DNA from: Streptomyces celluloflavus
GTDB lineage: Bacteria; Actinomycetota; Actinomycetes; Streptomycetales; Streptomycetaceae
Length of the DNA stretch: 64,000 bases
Assembly: GCA_000720995.1 (NCBI GenBank)
Contig: JOEL01000019.1
Location: forward strand, 53,823 to 117,822
Direction: 5' to 3'
Shown: positions 44,343-61,260 of the stretch, piece by piece
Position numbering within the stretch: position 1 is the stretch's first letter
How the letters are laid out: each line of letters opens with the position of its first letter
Notes under the pieces: generated by a model
What the model was told of the DNA's origin: nothing
What the model saw: only the letters and a program-made list of their open reading frames with translations
Databases searched by the model: none
Translations under genes and position numbers: made by a program

Positions 44343-44523
44343 CCGGGCCGCCGACGGCAGGTGTGCAAGGACGCCTGACGGCCCGATGGTCTGACGGTCC
44401 GACTGCCCCGTGGTCTGACGGCCGACGGTCTGCCGACCCCACGGAGCCTCACGACCCATGGGGCGACGGCGCCTGGCCGGTGGAGCGTGGCGCGGTGGCC
44501 GGTCGTCAAGCGGTCGGTTATTA

Positions 44524-44556
44524 CGGCAGATGGCCCCTGGCCGGGGCCATCTGCCG
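44524..44556 (+). terminator. Hairpin between yidC-like gene and surface-protein gene
   Basis: A perfect 14-bp stem (44524-44537 with 44543-44556) and 5-nt loop in the 380-bp gap. The rest of the gap holds the 32-bp repeats and looser repeats of GGTCTGACGG near 44392-44432, with no supported gene. Confidence 0.7.
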
Positions 44557-44622
44557 GTCGTTTCCGGCGACTCGCCCCCGCCCTCATGTCGGGCGCGGCA
44601 ATATGTCACCATAGTGCCCGAT

Positions 44623-46416
44623 ATGCAAGGAAAGAAGACTAAATGGTGGAAAGCGGCGACCGCCGCACTGGTCGGCGCGGTGATCGCGGCTACGTTGGGC
44701 GCCTTCGCCGCCCTCGCGTTCGCCGCGCCACTGCCCGGCGGGCTGGGCCCGTGCCTGGGAAGTCAGTGCCCCAGTTCGTACCAAGACCCCCACAGCGGTG
44801 GGATCGCGGGCCGGGACGAGAACATCAATATCTTCGTCGGCGGTGACTACCGGGTGGGCGGGTCCGCGGCGGAGGCCGAGGGCAAGATCGTCACGCTCGG
44901 CGATTTCTCGATGAACAAGACCTCGGGCTCCAGCATCTACAACGTCGGCGTGGTCGGCGTCGGCTCCCGGGTCCCGCCGCCCAACGGTTCGGACTTCCTG
45001 ACCGTCGGCGGCAATCTCACCGTCGCCGAGGGGCAGCGGCTGCTCGCCGAGGAGGGCCGCGCGTCCGGCGTGGTGAAGTACGCCGGGACGCTGAGCGGCA
45101 CGGTCAGCCCGCGCGCCGTACACGATCCGGACGCGGCCGCCCCGTACCTCGGGCTGCGGCCCGAACTGACCTCGTCCAGCGCCTGTTACGCGCACGCCGG
45201 CGGCGCCGGCAGACCGGCCACCGGGACGGCCGTCAACCAGGGCTACCAGACCCTCTTCCGGGGTGACGGCACCTCGCCGATCCAGGTCTTCAACGTCGAC
45301 TTCGACATCGCCGGGCGGAACGGCGGCGACCAGGGCATCACCTTCGAGGGCATTCCGGCCGGTGCCACGGTGCTGGTCAACATGCTCGGCGAGAGCCGCA
45401 CCATCAGCACCTTCATCGGCCACGATCTGCGTCCGGCCGGCATCCGCGAGCGGCTGCTGTGGAACTTCCCGGACGCGACCCAGGTGACGATCAAGGGCAG
45501 CGCGCAGTTCCAGGGCGCCGTCCTGGTGGGCCAGCCTGGCAGCCGTACGACGGTGTCCGTCCCGGGCATGAACGGCCGCTTCTTCACGGCCGGTTCACTG
45601 GACCACATCTCCTCCTCCGGTTCGGAGTTCCACGGCTATCCGTTCAACGGCGACCTGCCGGAGTGCGGCGAGGAGCCGACGCCTACGCCTACGGAGCCGA
45701 CTGTGACTCCCACGGAGCCCACTGTCGGTCCGACGGAGCCGACGGTGACGCCGACGGAGCCGACTGTCGGTCCGACCGAGCCGACCGTGACGCCGACGGA
45801 GCCCACCGTGGGCCCCACGGAGCCGACCGTGACTCCCACGGAGCCGACGGTGACACCGACCGAGCCGACGGTGGGCCCGACGGAGCCGACCGTGACGCCG
45901 ACGGAGCCCACGGTGGGTCCGACGGAGCCGACGGTGACGCCGACGGAGCCGACTGTCGGTCCGACCGAGCCGACCGTGACGCCGACCGAGCCCACCGTGG
46001 GTCCGACCGAGCCCACCGTGACGCCGACCGAACCAACCGTGCGGCCCACCCATCCCACCGGGCGCCCGACCTGGCCGGTCCCGTCGGAGAGTTGCGACTG
46101 CTGGGACACCGGCGGACACGGACACGGGCACGGACATGGCCATGGGAAGGACCACGGTCATGGCAAGGACCACAGCCACGGAAAGCACCACTGCCACGGC
46201 AAGGACCATGACCATGACCACGGTCACGGCAAGGGCCACGGCAAGGGCCACGGCAAGGGCCACGGCTATGACCGGGACCACGGCTACGGCCACGGGGGCG
46301 AGCTGGCCCGAAGCGGTGCGCTCAGCGACCCGTGGGCGCTCGGTGCGGCGGTGGCCGCGATCGTCTCCGGCGCGGCGCTGATCGTGCTGGTCCGGATCCG
46401 CTGGACCAAGCGGTAA
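44623..46416 (+). CDS. Choice-of-anchor A surface protein with EPTV repeats and His-rich tail
   Basis: A 597-aa exported protein. The signal peptide is residues 1 to about 33 ([31 protein letters not shown]). Next is a choice-of-anchor A domain at about 60-345 ([61 protein letters not shown]), then about 120 residues of [14 protein letters not shown] repeats. A region of some 60 residues is mostly His/Gly/Lys/Asp ([15 protein letters not shown]). The C-terminus is [37 protein letters not shown]-like: motif, hydrophobic helix and basic tail, as in a sortase signal, with LARSG in place of LAxTG. The anchor is presumably cell wall through a class E sortase such as that at 39822. Metal binding by the His-rich part is inferred. 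Confidence 0.88.
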
Positions 46417-49117: not shown

Positions 49118-49885
49118 GTGGAGTACCCGTACGGCCAGGAACCTGGCGCACCCATCCGGTCCGGCATCCCCGAGCACGGACGTATCCCGAAGTACTACGC
49201 GGCCAAGGTCGAAATAGCCGCGCTGCTCGATGAGTTGGGCGAGGGCGAGGCGCTGCCCACCGAGCGTGAACTGGCGCTGCGCTTCGAGGTCTCCCGGGAG
49301 ACGCTCCGCCAGGCGCTGCGCGAACTGGTCCTGGAGGGACGGCTGCGGCGGATGGGACGCGGCACGGTCGTCGCGGGACCCAAGCTGGCGCAGCCGCTCT
49401 CCCTGGCGAGCTACACCGAGGGCGTACGGGCCCAGGGCCGCCGGCCCGGCCGGCACCTCGTCGGCCTCGACCGCTTCGCCTGCCCGCCGGCGCTCGCCGG
49501 TGATCTGGGCCTCCAAGTGGGCGACCCTGTATGGCACTTGGAGCGGGTGCTGCTCGCCGACGATGAACGGGTCGGGCTGGAGAGCACCTATGTCGCCGTC
49601 GGCCGGGTGCCGGCGCTGGACACCGACTTCGCGCCGGACTCCTCCTTCTACGCCTATCTCCACGAGCGGCTCGGCATCGGCTTCGGCGACGCGGACGAGC
49701 GCCTGGAGACCGTCCTGGCCACCCCGCGCGAGGCGCTGCTGATCGGCACCCCCGGCGCGCTGCCGATGCTGCTGATCCACCGGCTCTCGCGGGACACGCA
49801 CGGGCGTCCGCTGGAGCGGGTGCGCTCCCTCTACCGGGGCGACCGGTTCTCCTTCACCACCCACCTGGGGACGCCGCCGGGCTGA
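49118..49885 (+). CDS. GntR/HutC-family regulator of the aminophosphonate cluster
   Basis: A 255-aa regulator. An N-terminal winged HTH (KVEIAALLDELGEGEALPTERELALRFEVSRETLRQALRELVLEGRLRRMGRGTVVAG) is followed by a UTRA effector domain from about residue 90 (SLASYTEGVRAQGRRPG, VWHLERVLLADDERVGLESTYVAV, LPMLLIHRLSRDTHGRPLERVRSLYRGDRFSF). UTRA domains bind small metabolites. The GTG at 49118 is the natural start of the HTH region. It is 328 bp upstream of the phosphonate genes on the same strand. Two shared sites, TAACGGGTCTAG, in front of both transcription units are its likely operators. Confidence 0.92.
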   Translation: MEYPYGQEPGAPIRSGIPEHGRIPKYYAAKVEIAALLDELGEGEALPTERELALRFEVSRETLRQALRELVLEGRLRRMGRGTVVAGPKLAQPLSLASYTEGVRAQGRRPGRHLVGLDRFACPPALAGDLGLQVGDPVWHLERVLLADDERVGLESTYVAVGRVPALDTDFAPDSSFYAYLHERLGIGFGDADERLETVLATPREALLIGTPGALPMLLIHRLSRDTHGRPLERVRSLYRGDRFSFTTHLGTPPG

Positions 49886-50213
49886 CGGCGACCGCGCCCG
49901 CCCGGTCCCGGCGGGCGGCGGCCGTCCGCCGCGCCGTCGGCGCGCGGGCCCGCGCCCATGAGGTCGCGGGTGACGCGCTCTTCACCGACGTCCCGATGGC
50001 CTGCGGGTACGAGCCACCCTGGCCGCACACAACCCTGCCGCCCTGCCGGGGCCACCCCCATCCGGTCGGCCGACGGCAGGGGCGCCCAGGTGGCCTGGAA
50101 TCCGTCCAACATCTCGAAAAGATAACGGGTCTAGGCCAAACTTGCAGCCGTGTTCACCGTCCCGTCGCCGGACCGACCGGTGCGGGCCACCCACCGACGG
50201 GAGCGTCTGGGGC
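49886..50213. other. Regulatory gap before aminophosphonate operon
   Basis: 328 bp without a supported gene. The only distinctive element is the candidate GntR operator at 50123-50142, inside a locally AT-richer stretch (50111-50145) that probably contains the operon promoter. Confidence 0.55.
50123..50142. promoter_or_regulatory. Candidate GntR operator, site A
   Basis: TAACGGGTCTAGGCCAAACT contains an imperfect GGTCTAGGCC palindrome. A near-identical site occurs at 56370 in front of the last cluster gene, and the core matches the TGGTCTAGACCA class bound by HutC-type GntR regulators. Confidence 0.7.
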
Positions 50214-51362
50214 ATGCGAGTCATAGTTGTCGGAGCCGGTGTGCTGGGAACCATGCACGCCTGGCACGCAGTGGAACGGGGCCACGAGGTCCTGCACATC
50301 GAGCGGGAGGCCGAGGCCCGCGGCGCCTCGGTCCGTAACTTCGGGCAGATCTGGGTCAGCGGCCGGGCCGGCGGCGAGGAGCTCGCCACCGCACTGCGCG
50401 CCCGCGAACTGTGGGAGGGCATCGGCGCCCGGGTGCCCGGACTGGGCTTCCGCGCCGTCGGTTCGCTCACCGTCGTCAAGAACGCGGCGGAGCGCGCCGT
50501 CGCCGAGGCGGCCACCCGCCGCCCGGACGCCGCCGCCCGCGGCTACCACCTGCTGGACGCCGAGGAGACCCGCGCCCGCAACCCCGCACTGCGCGGCGAG
50601 TTCGCCGGCGCGCTGTGGTGCGAACGGGACGCGGCCGTGGAACCGCGGACCGCCCAACGCGCCCTGAAGGAGCACCTGCTGGCGTCCGGCCGGTACACCT
50701 ACCTCGGCGGCCGCGAGGTCCGCGAGGTCGTCGGCGAGCGCGCCGTACGCGACGACCACGGTGACACCCACCACGGCGATGCCGTCATCCTGTGCACCGG
50801 CGCCTGGCTCGGCGGCCTGGTCCGCGAGCTCGTCCCCGACCTGCCCGTACGCCGCGTCCGGTTGCAGATGATGCAGACCGACCCGCTCGGCGAACCGCTG
50901 ACCACCTCCGTCGCCGACGCCGACAGCTTCCGCTACTACCCGGCGTACGCGAGCGACGCACTGGACGCGATGGCCGCCGCACAGGCCCAGACGCCGACCG
51001 CCGCCGCGCACAAGATGCAGCTGCTGATGGTGCAGCGCGCCGACGGCGGCCTGACCATCGGCGACACCCACGAGTACGAGACGCCCTTCGGCTTCGACGT
51101 CGTCGAGGACCCGTACGAGCACCTCACCGGCGTCGTCGAGTCGATCCTCGGCCGGCCGCTGCCGACCGTCCGCCGCCGCTGGGCCGGGGTGTACGCACAG
51201 TGCACCGGCACCACCCCCGGCCCCGACGGGGAGCCCGTCGCCCCCGTCGTGCACCGCGAGCAGGTCCGCGACGGCGTCTGGCTGGTCACCGGGCCCGGCG
51301 GGCGCGGGATGACCTGCTCCCCGGCGATCGCCGAAACCACCGCGAACGGACTGAACTGGTGA
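50214..51362 (+). CDS. FAD-dependent amine oxidoreductase of phosphonate clusters (TIGR03364 type)
   Basis: A 382-aa DAO-family flavoprotein. The FAD-binding motif is VIVVGAGVLGTMHAWHAVERGHEVLHIERE, with NFGQIWVSGR, a substrate/FAD region around VILCTGAWLG, and the C-terminal VTGPGGRGMTCSPAIAE. This subgroup is characteristically linked to phosphonatase-like enzymes and 2-aminoethylphosphonate transporters. Related enzymes oxidatively deaminate aminoethylphosphonate or its N-methyl form to phosphonoacetaldehyde. No PhnW-type transaminase is present, so this enzyme would take that step. ATG at 50214. Co-directional with the hydrolase, 26 bp away. Confidence 0.9.
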   Translation: MRVIVVGAGVLGTMHAWHAVERGHEVLHIEREAEARGASVRNFGQIWVSGRAGGEELATALRARELWEGIGARVPGLGFRAVGSLTVVKNAAERAVAEAATRRPDAAARGYHLLDAEETRARNPALRGEFAGALWCERDAAVEPRTAQRALKEHLLASGRYTYLGGREVREVVGERAVRDDHGDTHHGDAVILCTGAWLGGLVRELVPDLPVRRVRLQMMQTDPLGEPLTTSVADADSFRYYPAYASDALDAMAAAQAQTPTAAAHKMQLLMVQRADGGLTIGDTHEYETPFGFDVVEDPYEHLTGVVESILGRPLPTVRRRWAGVYAQCTGTTPGPDGEPVAPVVHREQVRDGVWLVTGPGGRGMTCSPAIAETTANGLNW

Positions 51363-51388
51363 GTGAGCTGACCGAGGAAAGAGAGGAA

Positions 51389-52126
51389 ATGACCGTGGAG
51401 AAGAGCGAGTTGACCGTGCGCGGCACCGGGACGGACGCCGTACCGGACATTCGGCTGGTCGTCCTCGACATGGCCGGCACGACCGTCGCCGACGGCGGGC
51501 TCGTGGAGCAGGCGTTCGCAGTGGCCGCGGAACGGCTCGGCGTACGGCCGGGCAGCGCGGACCACGACGACAAGCTGGCGTACGTCCGCGCCACCATGGG
51601 CGAGTCCAAGATCTCCGTCTTCCGGCACCTGTTCGGCGACGAGGACGCGGCGCAGCGCGCCAACGCGGCCTTCGAGACGGCCTACGGGGAACTCGTCGAC
51701 GGCGGACGGATCGCGCCCCTCCCCGGCGCCCGGGAGGCGATCGAGGCACTCCAGGCGGCCGGCCGCACCGTCGTGCTCTCCACCGGCTTCGCCCGGATCA
51801 CCCAGGACGCCATCCTCGACGCGCTCGGCTGGCACGGCCTCGTCCCGCTGACGCTCTGCCCGGCCGACGCCGGCGGCCGCGGCCGCCCCTACCCCGACAT
51901 GGTGCTGGCCGCCCTGCTGCGCACCGGCGGCGCCGACGACGTACGGCAGATCGCGGTGGCCGGCGACACCTCCTACGACATGCTCGCGGGCCGCCGCAGC
52001 GGCGCCTCGGTCGTCGCCGGGGTGCTCACCGGGGCGCACGGCAGGGAGCAGCTCACCGCCTCCGGCGCCACCCACGTCCTCGGCTCGGTCGCCGAACTCC
52101 CGTCACTGCTCGGGGTGGTGACGTGA
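51389..52126 (+). CDS. Phosphonatase-like HAD hydrolase (PhnX-related)
   Basis: A 245-aa HAD hydrolase predicted to cleave the C-P bond of phosphonoacetaldehyde. The nucleophile motif is VVLDMAGTTVADGG (Asp27; the Ala two residues on is typical for phosphonatases). The cap contains TMGESK with Lys74 at the position of the Schiff-base Lys of PhnX. Later motifs are LSTGFAR, GRPYPDMVLAAL and VAGDTSYDMLAGRRSGAS. The ATG at 51389 has GAGGAAAGAG upstream; a GTG at 51359 overlapping the previous stop is possible. It overlaps the ABC ATPase gene by 4 nt. Confidence 0.9.
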   Translation: MTVEKSELTVRGTGTDAVPDIRLVVLDMAGTTVADGGLVEQAFAVAAERLGVRPGSADHDDKLAYVRATMGESKISVFRHLFGDEDAAQRANAAFETAYGELVDGGRIAPLPGAREAIEALQAAGRTVVLSTGFARITQDAILDALGWHGLVPLTLCPADAGGRGRPYPDMVLAALLRTGGADDVRQIAVAGDTSYDMLAGRRSGASVVAGVLTGAHGREQLTASGATHVLGSVAELPSLLGVVT

Positions 52127-53331
52127 CGACCGCGCCGGACAGGCCGATCGCACCGCCCGAACCGGCCCCCCGGGACCGGAACACCGGCCCGCGCGACCTC
52201 CGGGGGAAGGCGGCGGCGGGCGACGGGCGCTCGGGTATCCGCTTCGACTCGGTGACCGTGGCGTACGGCAGGCACGGGGAGCACACGGTCCTGGACCGGC
52301 TCGACCTCACCGTCGAACCGGGCGAGGTGATGGCCCTGCTCGGCCCGTCCGGCTCCGGGAAGACCACCGCACTGCGGGCGGTCGCCGGCTTCGTCCGGCC
52401 GGTCTCCGGGCGAGTGCTGATCGGTGGCCGGGACGTGACCGGACTGCCGCCGTACCGGCGCGGTATCGGCATGGTCGTCCAGCAGTACGCGCTCTTCCCG
52501 CACATGAAGGTGGCGGAGAACGTCGCCTTCGGCCTCAAGGCGCAGAAGACGCCGCGCGCCGAGATCGCCGGGCGGGTCACCGAGGCGCTGGAGATGACCG
52601 GGATGGCCGGGTACGCCGCCCGGTACCCCCGGGAGCTGTCCGGCGGGCAGCAGCAGCGGGTGGCCATCGCGCGGGCGCTCGCCATCCGCCCCGGCGTGCT
52701 GCTGCTGGACGAGCCGCTGTCCGCGCTCGACGCCCAGCTGCGGTCCGGCATGATGGCCGAACTCGCCCGCCTGCACCGTGAGTTGCCGGACGTCTCCATC
52801 CTCTACGTCACCCACGACCAGGTCGAGGCGCTGACACTGGCCGACCGCATCGCGGTGATGGACCGGGCGCGGCTGCGCGACTGCGGCACTCCGCAGCAGC
52901 TCTACCGGCGCCCGCGCACCGAGTTCACCGCCTCCTTCGTCGGCACCGCGAACCTGCTGCCGGTGACGGTGCCGGCCGACGGGGCCGACGGCGGCGGCCG
53001 GGTCCGCTTCGGCGGCCGGACGCTGCGCGTGCCCGCCGGCGGCGCGGCCGCGGGCGCCGGCGCCACCCTGTGCGTACGCCCCCACCTCGTCGGCCTCGGC
53101 GAGAGCCCGGCGGCGGACGGCAACACGCTGCGCGGCACGATCACCGAGGTCCAGTGGCGCGGCGCCACCCACCGGCTGTACGTGGCCGTGGACGGTCACC
53201 GCTTCATGGCCGACCTGCGCGAACTGCGCGAGACACCGGCCCTGGGCGACACCGTAGCGCTGCACTTCGCCCCCGAGGACGCCGTCCTCATCCCGGCGGG
53301 CCTCACGGAGGACGGTGCGCGCGATGCCTAG
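52123..53331 (+). CDS. Aminophosphonate ABC importer, ATP-binding subunit
   Basis: A 402-aa ABC ATPase of the polyamine/iron/phosphonate importer group (PotA/FbpC/PhnT-like). Walker A is GPSGSGKTT, the Q-loop is VVQQYALFPHMKV, the signature is LSGGQQQRVAIARAL, Walker B is VLLLDEPLSALD and the H-loop is YVTHDQ. A C-terminal TOBE domain follows (from about residue 270). The GTG start overlaps the hydrolase stop (GTGA). It energises the two permeases encoded next. Confidence 0.94.
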   Translation: MTTAPDRPIAPPEPAPRDRNTGPRDLRGKAAAGDGRSGIRFDSVTVAYGRHGEHTVLDRLDLTVEPGEVMALLGPSGSGKTTALRAVAGFVRPVSGRVLIGGRDVTGLPPYRRGIGMVVQQYALFPHMKVAENVAFGLKAQKTPRAEIAGRVTEALEMTGMAGYAARYPRELSGGQQQRVAIARALAIRPGVLLLDEPLSALDAQLRSGMMAELARLHRELPDVSILYVTHDQVEALTLADRIAVMDRARLRDCGTPQQLYRRPRTEFTASFVGTANLLPVTVPADGADGGGRVRFGGRTLRVPAGGAAAGAGATLCVRPHLVGLGESPAADGNTLRGTITEVQWRGATHRLYVAVDGHRFMADLRELRETPALGDTVALHFAPEDAVLIPAGLTEDGARDA

Positions 53332-54313
53332 GACGGATACGGCGGTGAGGGCGGACAGGGTGGACGCAGCGGGTGTGGCGGACACGGCGGCGCGTACGGT
53401 GCCGGACCCCGATCCGGGACCTCCCGCGCCGACGAAGCGCCGTCCGGCGGGCCGGTCGAAGGCCGGCTGGGTGCTGCCGCCCGTAGCCGCCCTCGGCCTG
53501 GTCTTCCTCTACCCGCTGGCCCTCGTGGTGTGGCAGTCCTTCACCCCCGAGGACGGCGGGCACTCCACCGCCCCGTACGCGGCGGTCCTCGCCGAGGCGT
53601 CCTTCCGCGACGCGCTGGCGAACACCGTCCTGATAGCCGTCGGCGCGACCGCCGGCGCGCTCGCCCTCGGGCTGGTGCTCGCGCTGGTCATCGCGTTCGT
53701 GCCGTTCCCCGGCGGCCGGGCGCTCAGCCGCTTCATCGACATCTTCCTCGCGTTCCCCTCCTTCCTGATCACCCTCGCCCTGCTGTTCCTCTACGGCACG
53801 GCCGGTATGGCCAACGGACTGTGGACGGACGTGACCGGCGCCGCGAGCGGTCCGCTGGACTTTCTGCGCACCCCCTGGGGCGTACTGCTCGCCGAGATCA
53901 CCTACTTCACACCGTTCGTGATGCGACCGCTGCTGGCCGCCTTCTCCCAGGTGGAGACCGGGCAGTTGGAGGCCGCCGCCGCACTGGGCGCACGGCCGTG
54001 GCGGATCATCCGCAAGGTGATCCTGCCCGAGGCGCTGCCCTCGCTCGCGGCGGGCGGCGCGCTCGTCCTGGTGCTCTGCCTCAACGAGTTCGGGATCGTG
54101 CTCTTCACCGGCGCCAAGAACGTCGTCACCCTGCCGATGCTCGTCTACACCAAGGCCATCCTCGACGGCGACTACACCGGAGCCTGCGTCGTCGCCGTCG
54201 TCAACATCGCGCTTTCCGTCGCCCTCTACGCCCTCTACCGGACGGTGGTGGCGCGCACCGCCCCGCGGAGCGGCTCGCGTACAGGAGGTGTGCGCCGTCG
54301 TGCTGGTGCATAG
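53324..54313 (+). CDS. Aminophosphonate ABC importer, permease 1
   Basis: A 329-aa membrane subunit with six helices of the binding-protein-dependent transport family. A cytoplasmic N-terminal tail of about 50 residues is followed by WVLPPVAALGLVFLYPLALVVWQSF. The EAA coupling loop is QLEAAAALGARPWRIIRKVILPEALPSLAAG. It overlaps the ATPase gene by 8 nt and the second permease by 14 nt. The ATG at 53324 has GGAGGA at 11 nt; the GTG at 53315 is too close to the ribosome site. Corresponds to PhnU/PhnV-type subunits. Confidence 0.9.
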   Translation: MPRTDTAVRADRVDAAGVADTAARTVPDPDPGPPAPTKRRPAGRSKAGWVLPPVAALGLVFLYPLALVVWQSFTPEDGGHSTAPYAAVLAEASFRDALANTVLIAVGATAGALALGLVLALVIAFVPFPGGRALSRFIDIFLAFPSFLITLALLFLYGTAGMANGLWTDVTGAASGPLDFLRTPWGVLLAEITYFTPFVMRPLLAAFSQVETGQLEAAAALGARPWRIIRKVILPEALPSLAAGGALVLVLCLNEFGIVLFTGAKNVVTLPMLVYTKAILDGDYTGACVVAVVNIALSVALYALYRTVVARTAPRSGSRTGGVRRRAGA

Positions 54314-55097
54314 CAAGGGTGCCCGCCGGGCCGTCTGGATCCTCTTCTTCGTCCTCTTCCTGCCGGTGTTCGCGCTGCCGCTGCTGGTGATCGTCGCGGC
54401 GTCCTTCGCGACGAGCTGGAGTGGTGCGCTGCCCTCCGGGCCGACCCTCGCCCACTACCAGGACATCGCGCACGGCGACGCGGGGCAGGCGCTGCTCACC
54501 AGTGTGCTGACGGCGCTGGCGGCGAGCGCCGGCGCGCTCACCGTCGGGACCTGGGCGGCGCTCGCCGCCGAACGGCTGGGCCGGCGCGCCCGGCGGCTCG
54601 TCGACGGGCTGTTCCTGCTGCCGGTCGCGGTGCCCTCCGTCGTCGTCGGGCTCTCGCTGCTGGTCGCCTTCTCGCAGCCGCCGTTCCTGCTCAACGGCAC
54701 CCCGCAGATCGTGATCATCGCGCATACGGTGCTGGTCACTGCCTTCGCCTACCAGTCCGTGACGGCCGCGCTGACCCGCCTGGACCCGGCGTACGAGCAG
54801 AGCGCGGCCGGTCTCGGCGCCCGCCCCGGCTACGTCCTGTGGCGGGTCAAACTGCCGCTGCTGCTGCCCTCGCTGACGGCGGCCGCGGGGCTCTGCTTCG
54901 CGCTGTCCATGGGGGAGCTGAGCGCCACGATGATGATCTATCCGCCGGACTGGATGCCGCTGCCGGTGCAGATCTTCGCCACCACCGACCGCGGCTCCCT
55001 CTTCGCGGGCGCCGCCCTCGCGGTGACCCTGATGGCCGCGACGCTGATCGTGCTGCTCGGCGTCTCCCGCATCCGCACGAAGGCCGCTTACCGCTGA
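54300..55097 (+). CDS. Aminophosphonate ABC importer, permease 2
   Basis: A 265-aa permease with six helices (AVWILFFVLFLPVFALPLLVIVAASFATSW at the first) and an EAA loop at YEQSAAGLGARPGYVLWRVKLPLLLPSL. AGGAGG at 54283-54288 sits 11 nt before GTG 54300, the preferred start; GTG 54288 would overlap that site. Heterodimer with permease 1. The tight overlaps show one operon. Confidence 0.9.
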   Translation: MLVHSKGARRAVWILFFVLFLPVFALPLLVIVAASFATSWSGALPSGPTLAHYQDIAHGDAGQALLTSVLTALAASAGALTVGTWAALAAERLGRRARRLVDGLFLLPVAVPSVVVGLSLLVAFSQPPFLLNGTPQIVIIAHTVLVTAFAYQSVTAALTRLDPAYEQSAAGLGARPGYVLWRVKLPLLLPSLTAAAGLCFALSMGELSATMMIYPPDWMPLPVQIFATTDRGSLFAGAALAVTLMAATLIVLLGVSRIRTKAAYR

Positions 55098-55195
55098 CCG
55101 GCCGGGAGCGGACGGCGCGGGCCGCTCCGTCCTGTCGCCCGGCCACCTCTCCCCGCCTCCCCTCCGCCCCACCCTGCCAAGGAGAACGACCCGCC

Positions 55196-56302
55196 ATGCG
55201 CACCACCCCCAGCCCTCACTCCCGTCCGCGTCCGGAACGCCTCGCGGCCCGCAAGCCGCTCGCCGCCTGCTGCGGTGCCCTCGTCCTCGGCGTCTCGCTC
55301 ACCGCCTGCGGCGGTACCGGGAGCGCCGACGCGGACGCCAAGGAGATCACCGTCTACAGCGCCGACGGCCTCAAGAGCGAGCGCGGCGACGGCTTCTACG
55401 ACCGGGCCTTCGCGGACTTCGAGAAGAAGACCGGCATCAAGGTCAACTACGTCGAGAGCGGCTCCGGCGCGGCCGTCCAGCGGCTGGCCCGCGAGAAGGC
55501 CAACACCAAGGCCGATGTGCTGGTGACCCTGCCGCCGTTCATCCAGCAGGCCGACGGAAAGGGCCTGCTGGAAACGTACCGGCCCAAGGGCTCGGAGCAG
55601 GTCGCGGCCGCGGACAAGGACCCCCAGGGCAAGTGGACCTCGATCGTCAACAACTACTTCTGCTTCATCTACAACAAGAAGGAGCTGACGCAGCCGCCGC
55701 AGTCCTGGCAGGACCTGACGGACGGCCGGTTCGCCGGCAAGCTCCAGTACTCCACCCCCGGCGTCGCCGGTGACGGCACCGCCGTCGTCATCAAGGCGCT
55801 GCACGACTTCGGCGGCCAGGGCCCGGCCATGGAATTCCTCAAGAAGCTCCAGGCCAACAACGTCGGCCCGTCCGCCTCCACCGGCCAGCTCGCGCCGAAG
55901 ACCGACAAGGGCGAACTGCTGGTCGCCAACGGCGATGTGCAGATGAACTACGCCAATATGAAGTCGATGCCGAACCAGGGCATCTTCTTCCCCGCGGCGA
56001 AGCCCGGCGCCAAGCCCGCCACCTTCGCCCTGCCCTACGCCGCGGGCCTGGTCAAGAACGCCCCGCACGCCGCGAACGCCAAGAAGCTGCTGGACTACCT
56101 GCTCTCCGAACCGGTCCAGCGGCAGGTCTCCGAGGTTGGCGGCGGCTTCACGGCCCGCAAGGACGTCAAGGCCACCGACGAGAACGCCACCGCACTCGCC
56201 AAGATCATGGCGGGGGTGGACATCTTCCAGCCGGACTGGCAGGACATCAACAAGAACCTGGACTCCTACGTCCGCGCGTGGAAGACGGCGACCGGCAGCT
56301 GA
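55196..56302 (+). CDS. Aminophosphonate ABC importer, lipoprotein binding protein
   Basis: A 368-aa extracytoplasmic solute-binding protein. A signal peptide with lipobox LTAC (Cys38) anchors it as a lipoprotein. The mature part starts EITVYSADGLKSERGDGFYDRAFADFEKKTGIKVNYVESGSGAAVQRL, typical for the iron/thiamine/2-aminoethylphosphonate binding cluster, with WTSIVNNYFCFIYNKKEL and FALPYAAGLVKNAPHAANAKKLLDYLLS. The ligand is inferred as an aminophosphonate from neighbours. AAGGAGAAC precedes the ATG at 55196. It follows permease 2 by 98 bp, and expression in excess of the permease is usual. Confidence 0.92.
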   Translation: MRTTPSPHSRPRPERLAARKPLAACCGALVLGVSLTACGGTGSADADAKEITVYSADGLKSERGDGFYDRAFADFEKKTGIKVNYVESGSGAAVQRLAREKANTKADVLVTLPPFIQQADGKGLLETYRPKGSEQVAAADKDPQGKWTSIVNNYFCFIYNKKELTQPPQSWQDLTDGRFAGKLQYSTPGVAGDGTAVVIKALHDFGGQGPAMEFLKKLQANNVGPSASTGQLAPKTDKGELLVANGDVQMNYANMKSMPNQGIFFPAAKPGAKPATFALPYAAGLVKNAPHAANAKKLLDYLLSEPVQRQVSEVGGGFTARKDVKATDENATALAKIMAGVDIFQPDWQDINKNLDSYVRAWKTATGS

Positions 56303-56369
56303 GCGTTCACCGCCACAGCCGGCCGTTCACCCACCGACCCCTGACATCCGCATAAGGATTGCGGAATAG

Positions 56370-56389
56370 TAACGGGTCTAGTCCCAACG
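56370..56389. promoter_or_regulatory. Candidate GntR operator, site B
   Basis: TAACGGGTCTAGTCCCAACG repeats site A (50123) over the first 12 bases and most of the rest. It lies 185-205 bp upstream of the alkaline phosphatase-family gene. It is followed by a CCAACGGTTGG palindrome (56384-56394). Confidence 0.7.
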
Positions 56390-56574
56390 GTTGGTGTCGG
56401 TACGGGAGTTGGCGCCGCGCGCTACGCGCAACGAGCTGCCCGCCACACGCCTCGTACGCACCCGGCGCCACGCTCCCGCCCACCCCCTACGTCCACCCCT
56501 TACGTTCACTCCCTACGTCTGCGCCGCACGCTTCACGCCGCACGCTCCATGCCCCCGAATTCCGGAGGACCGCC

Positions 56575-58218
56575 ATGCTGTCAGCGTCCCCAGCGTCCCC
56601 AGCGTCCCCAGCGTCCCCAGCGTCCCCAGTGCCGTCGGTGTCATCCGCGTCATCCGTGCCTACGACACCATCGGCGATATCCCGCTCCCGAATGGCGATA
56701 TCCCGATCCCGAATATCGAGAAGGGCCTGGCTCACCGGTGCCACCGCCGGACTCGCGGGCGCCGCACTGGCCACCGGGCCGTTCGCCGGTCTCGCCCGAG
56801 CCGCGACCGGCGGCCCCACCACCCCCAAGGTCCTGGTCATCGGGCTGGACGGGGCCGGCCGCCTGGACCGCGTCAAGGAGGCCGCCACACCCACCCTCGA
56901 CGCCCTGATGGCCACCGGCATCACCGCCCCCAGCAGCCTCTACGCGAGCCCGATGGCGCGTACGGAGTCCGCCCCCGGCTGGTCGACGATCATCACCGGT
57001 GTCTGGCCCGACAAGCACGGTGCCAAGGACAACAGCTTCACCGGCGCCGACTACGCCAGTTACCCCGACTTCCTCACCCGCGTCGAACGGGCCCGGCCCG
57101 CGCTGCGCACCTACGCCGTCGCCTCCTGGGGCCCCATCACCGAGCGGATCTTCTCCGCCGAGGTCGACACCCGCGTCTCCACACCCGGAGCGGAGTACGA
57201 CAAGGGCACCACGGCGCGCGCGGTCGCCCAGATCAGGGACGGTGACCCCGACGCGGTCTTCGTCCAGCTCGACAACGTCGACCACGCGGGCCACTCCTCC
57301 GGCGCCGGCAGCCGCGCGTACCTGGACGCCCTGCACACCGCCGACGCCCAGGTCGGCGAGGTGCTGGCGGCGGTCAAGTCCCGTCCCGGGTACGGCTCCG
57401 AGAACTGGCTCGTCCTCGTCACCGCCGACCACGGCCACACCGACGCCGGCGGACACGGCGGCTCCAGCTGGGCCGAACGGCAGACCTTCGTGATCGCCGC
57501 CGGCGGCGGTCTGCCGGCCCGTACGGTCCGCGAGGACGTCAAGCTCGTCGATGTCGCCGCCACCGCCCTGCACCACCTCGGCATCGCCGTCGACCCGGCC
57601 TGGAAACTGGACGGCCGCCCCCTCCACGAGCCCTCCGCCGACGCCTTCGACACCCTGCGCCCCCAACTCCGTACGGCGGTCGACGAGACCGGCGTGGGCG
57701 CCACGGTGCTCGGCTTCACCCACACCCCACCCGCCGGCTGGTCGGTGGAGAACACCGCCATGGGCGGCGGAGGCGTCACCGAGTGGCGCGGCTGGTCCTT
57801 CACCACCGACGAGTTCTGGACCAAGACCGCGCCCGACCAGCAGCGCGAGTCCAACGTCCGGGCGCGCGGCGTCTTCGCGGTGGCCGACGGCGACGAATGG
57901 TCCGACAAGCCCCGCACCGGCACCTTCGACTCCACGCTCGTCACCCCCGCCTGGCCGGTCCACGGTGGCACCACCGCCACCCTCTCCTTCACCTCCCACT
58001 ACCTCCAGGAGGGCACCCAGAAGGCCGAGGTGCTGGTCTCCTACGACGGCGGCCCCCCGAAGCCCGTGCTGACCTACACCGCCGACGCCATCGCCCGCAC
58101 CGAGAACCTCCCCCTGAAAATCCCCACCGGCACCCGCACCATCCAGGCCCGCTTCCGCTACACCGGCGGCAACGACTGGTACTGGGCGATCGACGGGGTG
58201 CGGCTGAGCGGGGGCTGA
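56575..58218 (+). CDS. Tat-exported alkaline phosphatase/nucleotide pyrophosphatase-family protein
   Basis: A 547-aa secreted metal-dependent phosphohydrolase. The N-terminus has five AGCGTCCCC repeats encoding Ser-Pro-Ala, then a twin-arginine signal SRRAWLTGATAGLAGAALATGPFAGLARA. The catalytic core contains VIGLDGAG (metal Asp), SAPGWSTIITGVWPDKHGAKDN (nucleophile region), FVQLDNVDHAGHSSG and TADHGHTDAGGHGG (metal ligands), as in type I phosphodiesterases and phosphonoacetate hydrolases. A C-terminal jelly-roll-like region follows (from about residue 400). GGAGG lies 6 nt before the ATG at 56575. Site B suggests co-regulation with the phosphonate genes, perhaps releasing substrate outside the cell. 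Confidence 0.87.
   Translation: MLSASPASPASPASPASPVPSVSSASSVPTTPSAISRSRMAISRSRISRRAWLTGATAGLAGAALATGPFAGLARAATGGPTTPKVLVIGLDGAGRLDRVKEAATPTLDALMATGITAPSSLYASPMARTESAPGWSTIITGVWPDKHGAKDNSFTGADYASYPDFLTRVERARPALRTYAVASWGPITERIFSAEVDTRVSTPGAEYDKGTTARAVAQIRDGDPDAVFVQLDNVDHAGHSSGAGSRAYLDALHTADAQVGEVLAAVKSRPGYGSENWLVLVTADHGHTDAGGHGGSSWAERQTFVIAAGGGLPARTVREDVKLVDVAATALHHLGIAVDPAWKLDGRPLHEPSADAFDTLRPQLRTAVDETGVGATVLGFTHTPPAGWSVENTAMGGGGVTEWRGWSFTTDEFWTKTAPDQQRESNVRARGVFAVADGDEWSDKPRTGTFDSTLVTPAWPVHGGTTATLSFTSHYLQEGTQKAEVLVSYDGGPPKPVLTYTADAIARTENLPLKIPTGTRTIQARFRYTGGNDWYWAIDGVRLSGG
56583..56627 (+). repeat. Five tandem 9-bp repeats inside the signal region
   Basis: AGCGTCCCC occurs five times without change, in frame, giving an (S)PA repeat ahead of the Tat motif of the phosphatase gene. 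Confidence 0.92.
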
Positions 58219-58288: not shown

Positions 58289-59065
58289 TCACTCCGCCGC
58301 GAACTCGTACTGCAACTCATACAGATGACCTGCCTTGACCATCACCGTGACCTCGATGGGCCGCTCCGCGTCGCTGTAGACGACGCGCAGAGTCCGCAGC
58401 ACCGGCAGATCGCCGGGCAGCCGCAGTGCGGTGAACTGTTCCTGGGTGGGCACCCGCGCCGAGACCCGGTCCACACTGAGCCGGGGCGGATAGCCCAGCT
58501 CGGCGAGGAGACTCGGGGTGCCGCCCCTGATCTTCTGGCGCTTTGCGATCGCCGTGCCGCGGGCGAGCTCCAGCGGGTAGTAGGAGCTGACCAGTTCCAC
58601 CGGTTCGTCGTCGATCAGCAGCAGTTGGTGGCGGAGCAGGGCCATGCCGCCTTCCGAGAGCTTCAGCAGCGCGGACACATCGGCAGGCGGAGCGGTTTCC
58701 GTGACGCGGAGCAGTCTGCTGCGCGCACGGGTGCCGAGCTTCTCGGCTTCGGTGAGCCAGCGGTAGCGGTCGTCGGGGTCCACCGGGGCCATATACGAAG
58801 CCGGTCGCATGGTGCGCTGCCGGTGTTCGCGTACGGTGACGGAGGCTCCGGCCCGTCCGACGACCAGGCGTTCGCCCTTCAGAAGCTGTAGCGCCTTCTG
58901 CACGGTCGCGTTCGAGGCGGCGAACCTCGCGGTGAGCTGCGCCGTGGACGGCAGCCTGGCGCCCGGGGCCAGATCGCCGTTCATGATTTCGTCGCGCAGG
59001 TCGGCGGCGATCCGTTCGTGCAGCGAGCGGTGGTCGAAGGTGTCGTCATCGTGGGGCACCGTCAT
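58289..59065 (-). CDS. GntR/HutC-family regulator with UTRA domain
   Basis: A 258-aa regulator: winged HTH at about 15-75 (LHERIAADLRDEIMNGDLAPGARLPSTAQLTARFAASNATVQKALQLLKGERLVVGRAGASVTV) and UTRA domain at about 95-255 (RYRWLTEAEKLGTRARSRLLRV, LLRHQLLLIDDEPVELVSSYYPLELARGTAI). It overlaps by 4 nt with the stand-alone UTRA gene upstream, so the two are co-translated. The effector is unknown. A likely operator is the perfect palindrome at 59696-59711. Confidence 0.92.
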   Translation of the reverse strand: MTVPHDDDTFDHRSLHERIAADLRDEIMNGDLAPGARLPSTAQLTARFAASNATVQKALQLLKGERLVVGRAGASVTVREHRQRTMRPASYMAPVDPDDRYRWLTEAEKLGTRARSRLLRVTETAPPADVSALLKLSEGGMALLRHQLLLIDDEPVELVSSYYPLELARGTAIAKRQKIRGGTPSLLAELGYPPRLSVDRVSARVPTQEQFTALRLPGDLPVLRTLRVVYSDAERPIEVTVMVKAGHLYELQYEFAAE

Positions 59066-59604
59066 CGGATCCTGACGTCGTAGCGCAGGTGCTGATGCTG
59101 CGCGGCCATGGTCATCCTGTCGACCTGAAGTGGCTGGTCCTGAGCGTCCAGTGTGAGCCGGACCAACTGCATCACGGGCTCCCCTGGTCCGATCTCCAGC
59201 GCTTGCCGTTCTTCCTCGGTCGGCAGCCGGGCGCTGACGTCCTCGCGGGCTCGGACACCTACATGCCCGAGCTCGGCGAGCAGCGTGATGGCCCCTCCGG
59301 GAATTTTCGCCGTCCCGGCGAGGCGGGTGTCGTGGGCGATGGCCCGAGGATAATAGGTGTCCGTCAACTCGCAGGGACGGCCGTCGAGATACATGATGCG
59401 CCGGCGTACGACGACGTTGTCACCCTGGTCCAGGCCCAGGGCTTCCGCCACCTCGGCGGGCGCGGTCACTTCTCCCGCCTGCACGATGCGCTGACTGCTC
59501 TGACGGCCCTTGGCTGCGGTCTCGGCACTCCAGGCATCGCGCTGCCCGTTCTCACGCGGGGTCAGATACGGCACTGAGGTGGTGCCCCATTCGATGCTGC
59601 TCAC
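59062..59604 (-). CDS. Stand-alone UTRA-domain protein, no HTH
   Basis: A 180-aa protein that consists of a UTRA effector domain only: VVVRRRIMYLDGRPCELTDTYYPRAIAHDTRLAG, GAITLLAELGHVGVRAREDVSARLPTEEERQAL, VMQLVRLTLDAQDQPLQVDRMTMAAQ. The approximately 45 residues before it (SSIEWGTTSVPYLTPRENGQRDAWSAETAAKGR) show no HTH. The GTG at 59604 has GGAGGG 5-6 nt upstream, so the gene is complete rather than a truncation. It overlaps the full GntR regulator by 4 nt. It could pair with that protein or bind its ligand; this is inference. Confidence 0.88.
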   Translation of the reverse strand: MSSIEWGTTSVPYLTPRENGQRDAWSAETAAKGRQSSQRIVQAGEVTAPAEVAEALGLDQGDNVVVRRRIMYLDGRPCELTDTYYPRAIAHDTRLAGTAKIPGGAITLLAELGHVGVRAREDVSARLPTEEERQALEIGPGEPVMQLVRLTLDAQDQPLQVDRMTMAAQHQHLRYDVRIR

Positions 59605-59711: not shown

Positions 59712-59757
59712 GGTACGTTGCCGGCGCGAACGGCATCTGAGTGAGGGGTGGTCCACC

Positions 59758-60063
59758 ATGTCCCTGTCCTCGTCACACCGAGCCCGGCTGCTCCCGTGGT
59801 CCGGCCCTGAGGGCAAACCGTCCTACGTCATCGGCGAGGGAACCGGTCCGGTGTCGCGCCTCGCCGACGAGGCGGAGGCGGCGCAGCTCAGGATGGGGGT
59901 CGAGTTGCTGGGGCATGCGCGGGCGATGCTCGGTGACCGCACCGTGTCCAACGGCGAGGCGCGCTTCCTCGGTGACCGGTTGGTCGAGGCATTGCGGGAT
60001 GTGCTGCGGATCGCCGAGAGCCGGGGCGCGGAGCGAGCCGCGGCCGAGCATGCTCCCGGATGA
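59758..60063 (+). CDS. Small conserved hypothetical protein
   Basis: A 101-aa soluble protein: an N-terminal LPWSGPEGKPSYVIGEGTGPVSRLADEAEAAQLRMGVELLGHARAML segment, then helices SNGEARFLGDRLVEALRDVLRIAESRG. Similar sequences recur in Streptomyces near UTRA/GntR genes, from memory, but the family has no known function. The ATG at 59758 lies just after the palindrome region. It is divergent from the UTRA gene and probably shares its operator. Confidence 0.75.
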   Translation: MSLSSSHRARLLPWSGPEGKPSYVIGEGTGPVSRLADEAEAAQLRMGVELLGHARAMLGDRTVSNGEARFLGDRLVEALRDVLRIAESRGAERAAAEHAPG

Positions 60064-60164
60064 TCGCCCAGGGCGCCGTAGGCCCCGGCTGACTCGGGGC
60101 GGGGGCGTCGGCCGTACGTACGAGGCGTGGTCACTCGCGTCATGTGTGCCGGGTGCGGGAGCGG

Positions 60165-60395
60165 CAGGCGCCCCTGGTCAACACGTACGGCAGGAGTCTG
60201 GTCTGGACGTGCCCGGGGAGCCGATCTGGACCTCCGCGCCGGCCGCCGTCCAGTTCCTGGACGACCAGCGCCCGGCGGCACCGCGTACGTCATCGGGGAG
60301 GCGGGGCCGACCACCTCGCCGCACGACATCGGCTACGTCCCGACCGACCACGCCCCGGATTGCGTCGTCCTCGGGTACACGTATCTGGTCTTGAC
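60165..60395 (+). pseudogene. Frameshifted fragment of a HAD-IIA hydrolase
   Basis: Two plus-strand frames carry pieces of a protein like the intact HAD gene at 60481-61260. Frame 2 has GLDVPGEPIWTSAPAAVQFLDDQRP (compare GLDVPAENIWTSALATAKFLDDQHP). A shift then leads into frame 1 with GGTAYVIGEAGPTTSPHDIGYVPTDHAPDCVVLGYT (compare GGSAYVIGEAGLTTALHEVGYVLTDTDPDFVILGET). Both ends of the gene are missing and no start exists. It is opposite in orientation to the intact copy. Confidence 0.82.
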
Positions 60396-60480: not shown

Positions 60481-61260
60481 TCAGATGAAGTCGACCAGGT
60501 CCGCGATGGAGTCCTTGACGTGGGTCGGCCGGTACGGGAAGCGGCCTACGTCCTCTTTGGCCGTGAGCCCGGTGAGCACCAGATAGGTCTGCATCCCGGC
60601 TTCCAGGCCCGCGAGCACATCGGTGTCCATCCGGTCGCCGATCATGGCGCTGGTCTCGGAGTGCGCTCCGATCGTGTTGAGCGCGGTCCGCATCATCAGC
60701 GGATTCGGCTTACCGATGAAATACGGCTTCTTACCGGTAGCCGCAGTGATCAGTGCTGCGACAGCCCCCGTGGCAGGAAGCGCACCCTCGGCCGACGGAC
60801 CCGTTTCATCGGGGTTGGTGGCGACAAACCGGGCCCCATCGTTGATCAGCCGTACTGCCTTCGTCATCGCCTCGAATGAGTAGGTTCGAGTCTCACCCAA
60901 GATCACGAAATCCGGGTCCGTATCCGTCAGGACGTACCCGACCTCGTGCAGTGCTGTCGTCAGGCCGGCCTCACCAATGACATAGGCGGAGCCGCCAGGG
61001 TGCTGGTCATCCAGGAACTTGGCGGTGGCCAGGGCCGAGGTCCAGATGTTCTCCGCAGGCACGTCCAGACCTATGCGATTCAGCCGAGCGTGCAGATCCC
61101 GCGCCGTATAGATCGAATTATTGGTCAGGACCAGGAATGGCCGGCCGGAATCACGCAGCTTCTTGATGAAGGCATCCGCTCCCGGCACCGGAATGCCTTC
61201 GTGCATCAGCACCCCATCCATGTCGGTGAGCCACGATTCGATGGGCTTTCGCTCTGCCAT
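60481..61260 (-). CDS. HAD-IIA family hydrolase (NagD-like)
   Basis: A 259-aa phosphatase of HAD subfamily IIA (NagD/p-nitrophenylphosphatase type). The nucleophile motif is WLTDMDGVLMHEG, motif II is VLTNNS, the cap domain spans about 80-180, and the C-terminal motifs are KPNPLMMRTAL and IGDRMDTDVLAGLEAGMQT. The substrate is probably a phosphorylated metabolite; housekeeping detoxification is possible. ATG at 61260 with AGGAGA about 8 nt upstream. Base composition is slightly lower in GC than its neighbours. A decayed paralogous fragment lies at 60165-60395 on the other strand. Confidence 0.93.
   Translation of the reverse strand: MAERKPIESWLTDMDGVLMHEGIPVPGADAFIKKLRDSGRPFLVLTNNSIYTARDLHARLNRIGLDVPAENIWTSALATAKFLDDQHPGGSAYVIGEAGLTTALHEVGYVLTDTDPDFVILGETRTYSFEAMTKAVRLINDGARFVATNPDETGPSAEGALPATGAVAALITAATGKKPYFIGKPNPLMMRTALNTIGAHSETSAMIGDRMDTDVLAGLEAGMQTYLVLTGLTAKEDVGRFPYRPTHVKDSIADLVDFI

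Follow-up and report, generated by a model that had tools for sequence, protein, structure and literature searches.

A probable aminophosphonate uptake and oxidation cluster of Streptomyces that shares a putative operator with genes for exported phosphoesterases

We analyzed an apparent aminophosphonate uptake and oxidation cluster at positions 49118-58218 of a 64,000-nucleotide (nt) stretch of Streptomyces celluloflavus DNA (the window), which is part of a genome of 8.68 Mb in 193 contigs. Gene families were assigned by NCBIfam and Pfam profile searches with curated cut-offs. A sequence-only reading had listed a GntR regulator, a flavin adenine dinucleotide (FAD) amine oxidase, a phosphonatase-like HAD hydrolase, an ATP-binding cassette (ABC) importer, and an exported phosphohydrolase, and all were found in that order on the + strand (Table 1). 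The same reading described the genes as overlapping, which is true of the HAD and ATPase genes, the ATPase and permease U genes, and the U and V genes, but not of the phosphodiesterase gene, which is set apart from the binding-protein gene by a gap of about 270 nt that holds its own copy of an operator. A twin-arginine translocation (Tat) motif, SRRAWL, was read by eye in the phosphodiesterase translation. The regulator combines a GntR helix-turn-helix domain with a UTRA domain in Pfam, the arrangement of HutC-type proteins, and scored 98.1 bits against the PhnF profile TIGR02325 (cut-off 156.8).

Table 1. Genes and regulatory features of the cluster (positions in the window; scores in bits)
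Feature	Position	Strand	Evidence
GntR-family regulator, HutC type (UTRA domain)	49118..49885	+	PF07702 109.9; PF00392 44
Conserved leader of oxidase operon	50112..50213	+	-102 to oxidase start; nearly indel-free in relatives
Operator copy 1, TAACGGGTCTAGGCC	50123..50137	+	Exact operator match
PhoP-box-like repeats	50152..50191	+	GTTCACC at -62, GKTCACC-like unit at -29; spacing 33 nt (3 x 11)
PbfD-like FAD amine oxidase (predicted)	50214..51362	+	TIGR03364 324.4 (cut-off 285.1)
Phosphonatase-like HAD hydrolase, cap Lys74	51389..52126	+	TIGR03351 (PhnX-like) 227.7 (cut-off 218.9)
ABC importer ATPase, PhnT-like	52123..53331	+	Best TIGR03258 424.4 (below cut-off of 499.15)
ABC importer permease, PhnU-like	53315..54313	+	NF011624 399.8 (cut-off 247); TIGR03226 310.9 (cut-off 283.45)
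ABC importer permease, PhnV-like	54288..55097	+	Best TIGR03255 231 (below cut-off of 358.7)
Lipoprotein-type substrate-binding protein, 2-AEP type	55196..56302	+	NF011620 478.7 (cut-off 310); LTAC lipobox by eye
Operator copy 2, TAACGGGTCTAGTCC	56370..56384	+	Upstream of phosphodiesterase gene
Tat-type exported NPP-like phosphodiesterase (alkaline phosphatase superfamily), unnamed C-terminal domain	56575..58218	+	PF01663 80.2 (cut-off 23)

The HAD protein had been described as phosphonatase-like with the cap lysine, and this description held. The lysine, K74 of an MGxxK motif, has a counterpart in each of 59 aligned HADs, at the same column in 57 and within MGTDK in the other two; the alignment shows no variation in the nucleophile motif, DMAGT (D27), R166 is present in all 59, and D193 and D197 in 58. 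It is the only protein of its genome above the TIGR03351 cut-off, the next match scoring 68 bits. We classify the predicted enzyme as phosphonatase-like but not PhnX. The oxidase is 27% identical to an A. baumannii protein that scores 286.1 bits on TIGR03364. The binding protein has as its closest solved relative 4r6y, a putative 2-aminoethylphosphonate (AEP) binding protein (E 9.5e-89), and the NF011620 and TIGR03226 scores of the binding protein and permease U place the importer with the PhnSTUV type. As the sequence-only reading had remarked for the cluster, the PhnW transaminase is missing: a search of the whole genome detected none above the cut-off (best score 83.7 versus 400.8 bits). 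PhnJ of the carbon-phosphorus (C-P) lyase also gave no match in the genome under conditions that detected the E. coli positive control. Endogenous phosphonate synthesis was considered and rejected; the phosphoenolpyruvate (PEP) mutase family matched at seven places, five of them above the cut-off, and EDK-X5-NS, the PEP mutase motif, occurred in none of the four translations inspected from among these five.

The distribution of the cluster was surveyed in 121 genomes of the genus. A TIGR03351 HAD is encoded above the cut-off in 51 of them and at 152 bits or more in 59, the next match lying at 90 bits; the additional HADs comprise seven between 210 and 218 bits and one split gene of 152 bits (G085). 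We fetched the 58 HAD loci outside the S. celluloflavus genome. An oxidase match lies near the HAD in all 58, divergent and on the opposite strand in two (L041 and L042); the order GntR-FAD-HAD recurs in 56, so the arrangement is not a product of chance, and 45 also keep the complete set of four transporter genes in unchanged order. The complete set of GntR-FAD-HAD, full importer, and a phosphodiesterase of at least half length is found at 31 loci. A phosphodiesterase of this length accompanies 31 of the 45 loci with a full importer and 0 of the 11 with an incomplete one, a joint loss that one contiguous deletion could explain; shorter fragments of the gene are retained at L072 and L098. In two genomes (G059 and G103) the operator lies directly ahead of the importer in a stretch that has no FAD or HAD match, and a TIGR03351 HAD above the cut-off adjoins a divergent oxidase (31-32% identical to that of the window) elsewhere, at L041 and L042. 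For G103 this pair scores 415 bits on TIGR03364 and 270 bits on TIGR03351. This arrangement supports the importer and the oxidase/HAD pair acting together. Outside the genus, Gloeocapsa PCC 7428 has genes for a TIGR03364 oxidase and for a HAD of related type (169.6 bits, under the TIGR03351 cut-off) in the vicinity of PhnF and a putative 2-AEP transporter.

The conserved leader ahead of the oxidase contains a putative HutC-type operator, TAACGGGTCTRGNCC, beside PhoP-box-like repeats. In 53 of 57 leaders the distance from the operator TAACGGGTCTAGNCC to the start of the oxidase is exactly 91 nt; it is 90 nt in L043, 92 in L085 and L095, and 45 in L079. Column conservation was counted on 54 sequences, with L079, L085, and L095 left out. 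Among 124 offsets, the two best for GTTCACC-like units within one mismatch were -62 (49 of 54 leaders) and -29 (34 of 54), which are in phase for an 11-nt repeat; the intermediate positions at -51 and -40 match in four leaders and one leader, respectively. Streptomyces PhoP boxes are described as 11-nt repeats in which GTTCACC is the most conserved motif (PMC6283541). The operator core, GTCTAG, fits the reported HutC consensus GTMTAKAC at seven of eight positions (PMC4494728). Beside many operator copies stands a TNRC-like element, placed 11 nt upstream of TAAC and reading TCTC in the leader of the window (50112-50137), which suggests a longer binding module. The near absence of indels raised the alternative of a structured RNA leader, for which RNAalifold on the 54 sequences gave -0.55 kcal/mol and a single 2-pair helix; because there was no notable RNA structure, this candidate was set aside in favor of protein-binding DNA sites. 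No operator was listed ahead of the GntR gene itself at up to three mismatches.

The 15-mer operator occurs exactly three times in the S. celluloflavus genome: ahead of the oxidase operon, ahead of the phosphodiesterase gene, and, at G000:C17:176033, ahead of an unlinked gene for a Tat-type calcineurin-like metallophosphoesterase. Across the 121 genomes it was found at 90 sites in 61 genomes, compared with 5 sites for the reversed-pattern control. The adjoining gene is the oxidase at 56 sites, a truncated oxidase remnant at 1, the importer ATPase at 2, the phosphodiesterase at 20 (two of which were first labeled "cluster-other" and were resolved by follow-up), the metallophosphoesterase at 4, a phospholipase C at 1, and a phospholipase-like gene at 1, with 5 sites unassigned. 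Thus, a cluster gene or an exported phosphoesterase gene lies next to 85 of the 90 sites, ambiguously so for one, and the other five equal the number in the reversed control. The ambiguous case is in G098: the phospholipase-like gene (36% identity) is on the opposite strand from the site, and the gap also borders a regulator-like gene. The operator is present in 58 of 59 cluster genomes and in 3 of 62 others (Fisher p 1.2e-29, uncorrected for relatedness). One of these three has a remnant cluster (L117); the sites in the other two match no regulon query and look like chance occurrences.

Upstream of 36 phosphodiesterase genes or fragments, that of the window included, the operator was exact in 17 and within two mismatches in 24, the latter figure being 2 of 1138 when stretches without TAACGGGTC were drawn at random from these loci. 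A wider scan sought the operator followed by GTTCAC in the genome contigs of an 84,980-species collection; at least 119 stretches matched and 80 loci were listed. Among the matches listed, 75 of 80 are from Streptomyces, including Streptomyces diastatochromogenes (L199), four are from Actinacidiphila, Wenjunlia, or Streptantibioticus, and one is from a metagenome-assembled actinomycete genome. Of the same 80 loci, 74 have the oxidase as the next gene (67 of them with a distance of 91 nt) and 4 have the importer, and two that are cut off have GntR upstream.

The exported esterases belong to three families, of which NPP (nucleotide pyrophosphatase/phosphodiesterase) and phospholipase C are members of the alkaline phosphatase superfamily and the calcineurin-like family is not. 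For the phosphodiesterase, 26 of 30 retrieved homologues were aligned after four long ones were left out. D92, D236, H240, D285, H286, and H294, the likely metal ligands, and Ser132, the likely nucleophile, are invariant in the 26, these roles being assigned by reading the alignment. With the PF01663 match, the metal-ligand set identifies an NPP or type I phosphodiesterase, and the predicted structure (pLDDT, the predicted local confidence score, 69; pTM, the predicted template-modeling score, 0.59) is nearest in fold to Xac NPP, followed by NPP3 and the alkaline sphingomyelinase ENPP7. The likeness to ENPP7 and ENPP6 thus lies in predicted fold and metal ligands, whereas the probable nucleophile is Ser132 in place of the Thr that the alignment indicates for NPPs, and an additional C-terminal domain is present. 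This unnamed domain of about 170 residues (57700-58215), for which Pfam gave no match in the phosphodiesterase, is shared at 44.6% identity with the phospholipase C (L120 1547-4684).

The metallophosphoesterase was detected in 10 of the 121 genomes (E <= 1e-60), all of which have the cluster. Its nearest solved relative by sequence is the acid sphingomyelinase-like SMPDL3A (E 2e-4), and the model (pLDDT 70) is closest in fold to Rv0805, purple acid phosphatase, GpdQ, and SMPDL3A/B. The exact operator precedes the matched start by 30-81 nt in only 4 of the 10 orthologues, and we therefore do not regard the gene as a general regulon member. The operator-linked phospholipase C, from G004, scores 673.4 bits on TIGR03396 (cut-off 580.25); only 2 of the 121 genomes have a match at E <= 1e-100, which does not make it a general member either. 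That one operator is shared by enzymes of three families whose relatives are of the choline or sphingolipid type suggests that aminophosphonate head groups are released.

Around the gene content and its conservation, the lack of PhnW above the cut-off and of any PhnJ match, and the shared operator, which are direct observations, we propose a transaminase-free, C-P-lyase-independent regulon for scavenging aminophosphonates, with a probability of roughly two in three. In the extracellular space, phosphonate esters would be cut by the exported phosphodiesterase and, in this strain, also by the unlinked exported metallophosphoesterase, which would free AEP or N-methyl-AEP. The PhnSTUV-type importer, judging from its family, would take up these compounds. 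The FAD oxidase would then oxidatively deaminate the substrate to phosphonoacetaldehyde, ammonia or methylamine, and H2O2, a reaction demonstrated for PbfD enzymes elsewhere, and the PhnX-like HAD may form a Schiff base through Lys74 and cleave the C-P bond to give acetaldehyde and phosphate. The HutC-type GntR protein of the cluster presumably binds TAACGGGTCTRGNCC, as its co-occurrence with that site suggests, and PhoP probably contributes a phosphate-starvation signal through the GTTCACC repeats. Entry by oxidative deamination, possibly of an N-methylated aminophosphonate, had been put forward from the sequence of the window; the TIGR03364 score, the published chemistry of the PbfD enzymes, and the 2-AEP-type binding protein support it. 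The assignment, with N-methyl-AEP as the likely substrate, appears well founded, but it had already been proposed and shown for distant relatives. The sequence-only reading had named neither the operator common to these genes nor a role for the phosphohydrolase.

Several observations weigh against this interpretation. The predicted HAD scored 69.9 bits against the profile of PhnX proper (TIGR01422, cut-off 220), and at the positions of the residues that we take to be His56, Tyr128, and Cys22 of Bacillus PhnX it has V77, F134, and no counterpart, respectively. Because it is not PhnX proper, it could act on a compound related to phosphonoacetaldehyde. The equivalog cut-offs of the importer were missed by the binding protein (PhnS, TIGR03227, 348.4 versus 395.3), the ATPase (PhnT, 424.4 versus 499.15), and permease V (PhnV, 231 versus 358.7), and 11 of the 56 core loci are without one or more importer genes. 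A single indication, the TIGR03364 score, puts the window oxidase provisionally in the PbfD clade, and the roles given to oxidase, HAD, and esterase are predictions from sequence. Fold and shared operator are the two grounds on which the esterases may be taken to act on phosphonate esters, and confidence in both models is modest (mean pLDDT 69-70). No coding-strand operator precedes 12 of the 36 phosphodiesterase genes or fragments (four of the 12, at L072, L086, L091, and L098, are fragments of half length or less), and 6 of the 10 metallophosphoesterase genes have none within three mismatches on the coding strand in the 500 nt upstream; in one of these six, L140, the opposite strand matches at -212 with two mismatches. 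Within the S. celluloflavus genome, sites with up to two mismatches number 63 versus 114 for the reversed control, and because they do not exceed it only exact sites are informative there. The two one-mismatch sites match no regulon query, and among five sites with one or two mismatches (L112-L116) the only match to such a query is a distant ROK paralogue in L114. The sampled genomes are also related, so that the site counts are not independent.

The exported esterases might instead be a general phosphate-starvation set that supplies phosphate rather than aminophosphonate, the operator reflecting no more than shared phosphate control. The PhoP-like repeats in the operon leader fit such a scheme, as does the report that extracellular hydrolases are Pho targets in Streptomyces (PMC6283541), but the element shared with the esterase genes is the HutC-type operator, which is nearly restricted to cluster genomes. 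Furthermore, all genomes with the metallophosphoesterase hold the cluster, and the phosphodiesterase tracks full importers, although a contiguous deletion could account for the latter. We consider this explanation unlikely. A second alternative is that the cluster serves another aminophosphonate, with 1-hydroxy-2-aminoethylphosphonate (HAEP) as the substrate of the oxidase and, presumably, hydroxy-phosphonoacetaldehyde as that of the HAD. The HAD's passing of the PhnX-like but not the PhnX cut-off agrees with this proposal, and HAEP was the oxidase substrate suggested in the original TIGR03364 description, as quoted in PMC10590968. The same source, however, reports oxidation of both N-methyl-AEP (M1AEP) and AEP by PbfD enzymes and concludes that these enzymes serve to oxidize M1AEP. 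Given also that the binding protein belongs to the 2-AEP family, we judge HAEP an improbable substrate.

The operator could also be bound by a different GntR protein, either DasR or the product of a second GntR gene at 58289-59065, which would place the cluster under amino-sugar or unrelated control. Its core, GTCTAG, resembles the HutC consensus given above and the DasR site, but DasR is found throughout Streptomyces, while the operator is nearly restricted to cluster genomes. The operator still adjoins the cluster GntR gene where FAD and HAD are absent (L124 and L129), and no separate gene corresponding to the second GntR was listed at the loci of the 58 relatives (E <= 1e-15); control by either protein is thus quite improbable. 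Operation of the oxidase and HAD in a non-phosphonate amine pathway beside a coincidental transporter, for which one could cite the diversity of DAO-family oxidases and the low identity to the A. baumannii protein, is scarcely credible when TIGR03364 and TIGR03351 proteins above their cut-offs adjoin a 2-AEP importer here and a similar pair in Gloeocapsa has PhnF and a putative 2-AEP transporter close by.

The proposed scavenging regulon resembles several known systems in part. PbfD1 of A. baumannii, annotated as TIGR03364, and PbfD2 of M. fucicola convert M1AEP and AEP to phosphonoacetaldehyde; the host of PbfD2 apparently lacks phnW, and PbfD homologues outside phnWX and phnWYA clusters occur in many Terrabacteria, mostly cyanobacteria (PMC10590968). 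Neither "Streptomyces" nor "Actinobacteria" appears in the main text of that paper (Zangelmi 2023). In its pathway, as in the one proposed here, an FAD oxidase feeds phosphonoacetaldehyde to a phosphonatase and some clusters have no PhnW, but the phosphonatase is PhnX proper instead of a TIGR03351 PhnX-like protein, and the portion of the text covered here contains no operator or exported esterase. According to PMC11203657, the hpnW-phnSXUT cluster of Achromobacter likewise has a TIGR03364 protein, HpnW, replacing PhnW next to PhnX and a PhnSTU importer; it differs in having LysR regulation, PhnX proper, an HD-type hydrolase without a signal sequence, and phnW elsewhere in the chromosome. The PhnSTUV 2-AEP importer is matched by the window at NF011620 for the binding protein and at TIGR03226 and NF011624 for permease U, but not at TIGR03227, TIGR03258, or TIGR03255, and its partner enzymes differ. 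S. diastatochromogenes is named in a figure legend of PMC8316502, apparently for a tree of binding proteins. We found no description of the operator or of the Streptomyces cluster in searches of a library of open-licence papers.

Other features of the window were seen beside the cluster. The second GntR gene (58289-59065, -) abuts another GntR-like gene (59062-59604, -), which seemingly has no DNA-binding domain. An open reading frame at 59741-60394 (+) contains, by eye, fragments like the NagD-like HAD encoded on the - strand at 60481-61260, as if that gene had been partly duplicated in inverted orientation and then decayed. On the other side, 44458-46416 (+) encodes a large, apparently secreted protein that has tandem repeats and, ahead of the C-terminus, a stretch rich in His, Gly, and Lys.

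A 2021 review restricts phosphonate degradation to the few Streptomyces with C-P lyase genes, states that AEP breakdown by strain StA was not followed up biochemically or genetically, and allows for other phosphonate enzyme systems in the genus (PMC7866108). The new findings are the prevalence of the cluster among Streptomyces and an operator that links import and oxidation with the exported diesterases; the oxidative chemistry itself is already published for relatives. The cluster is a concrete candidate for phosphonate use in about half of the 121 sampled species. More tentatively, and at somewhat less than even odds, many Streptomyces may hold a phosphonolipid-scavenging regulon, in which one GntR operator unites the import/oxidase/phosphonatase operon with exported NPP-like, calcineurin-like, and phospholipase C diesterases (C-type) that strip AEP or N-methyl-AEP from lipids such as the ceramide-AEP of oomycetes and protozoa. 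Ceramide-AEP is on record from bacteria as well as from oomycetes and protozoa, and N-methyl forms were minor components of the extract examined (PMC9174665). Functions for three families of exported phosphoesterases are suggested by the shared operator, which also predicts a path in soil by which phosphonolipids yield phosphate. If true, a phosphonolipid regulon would tie extracellular hydrolysis to C-P cleavage and account for AEP use in a genus called largely non-degrading.

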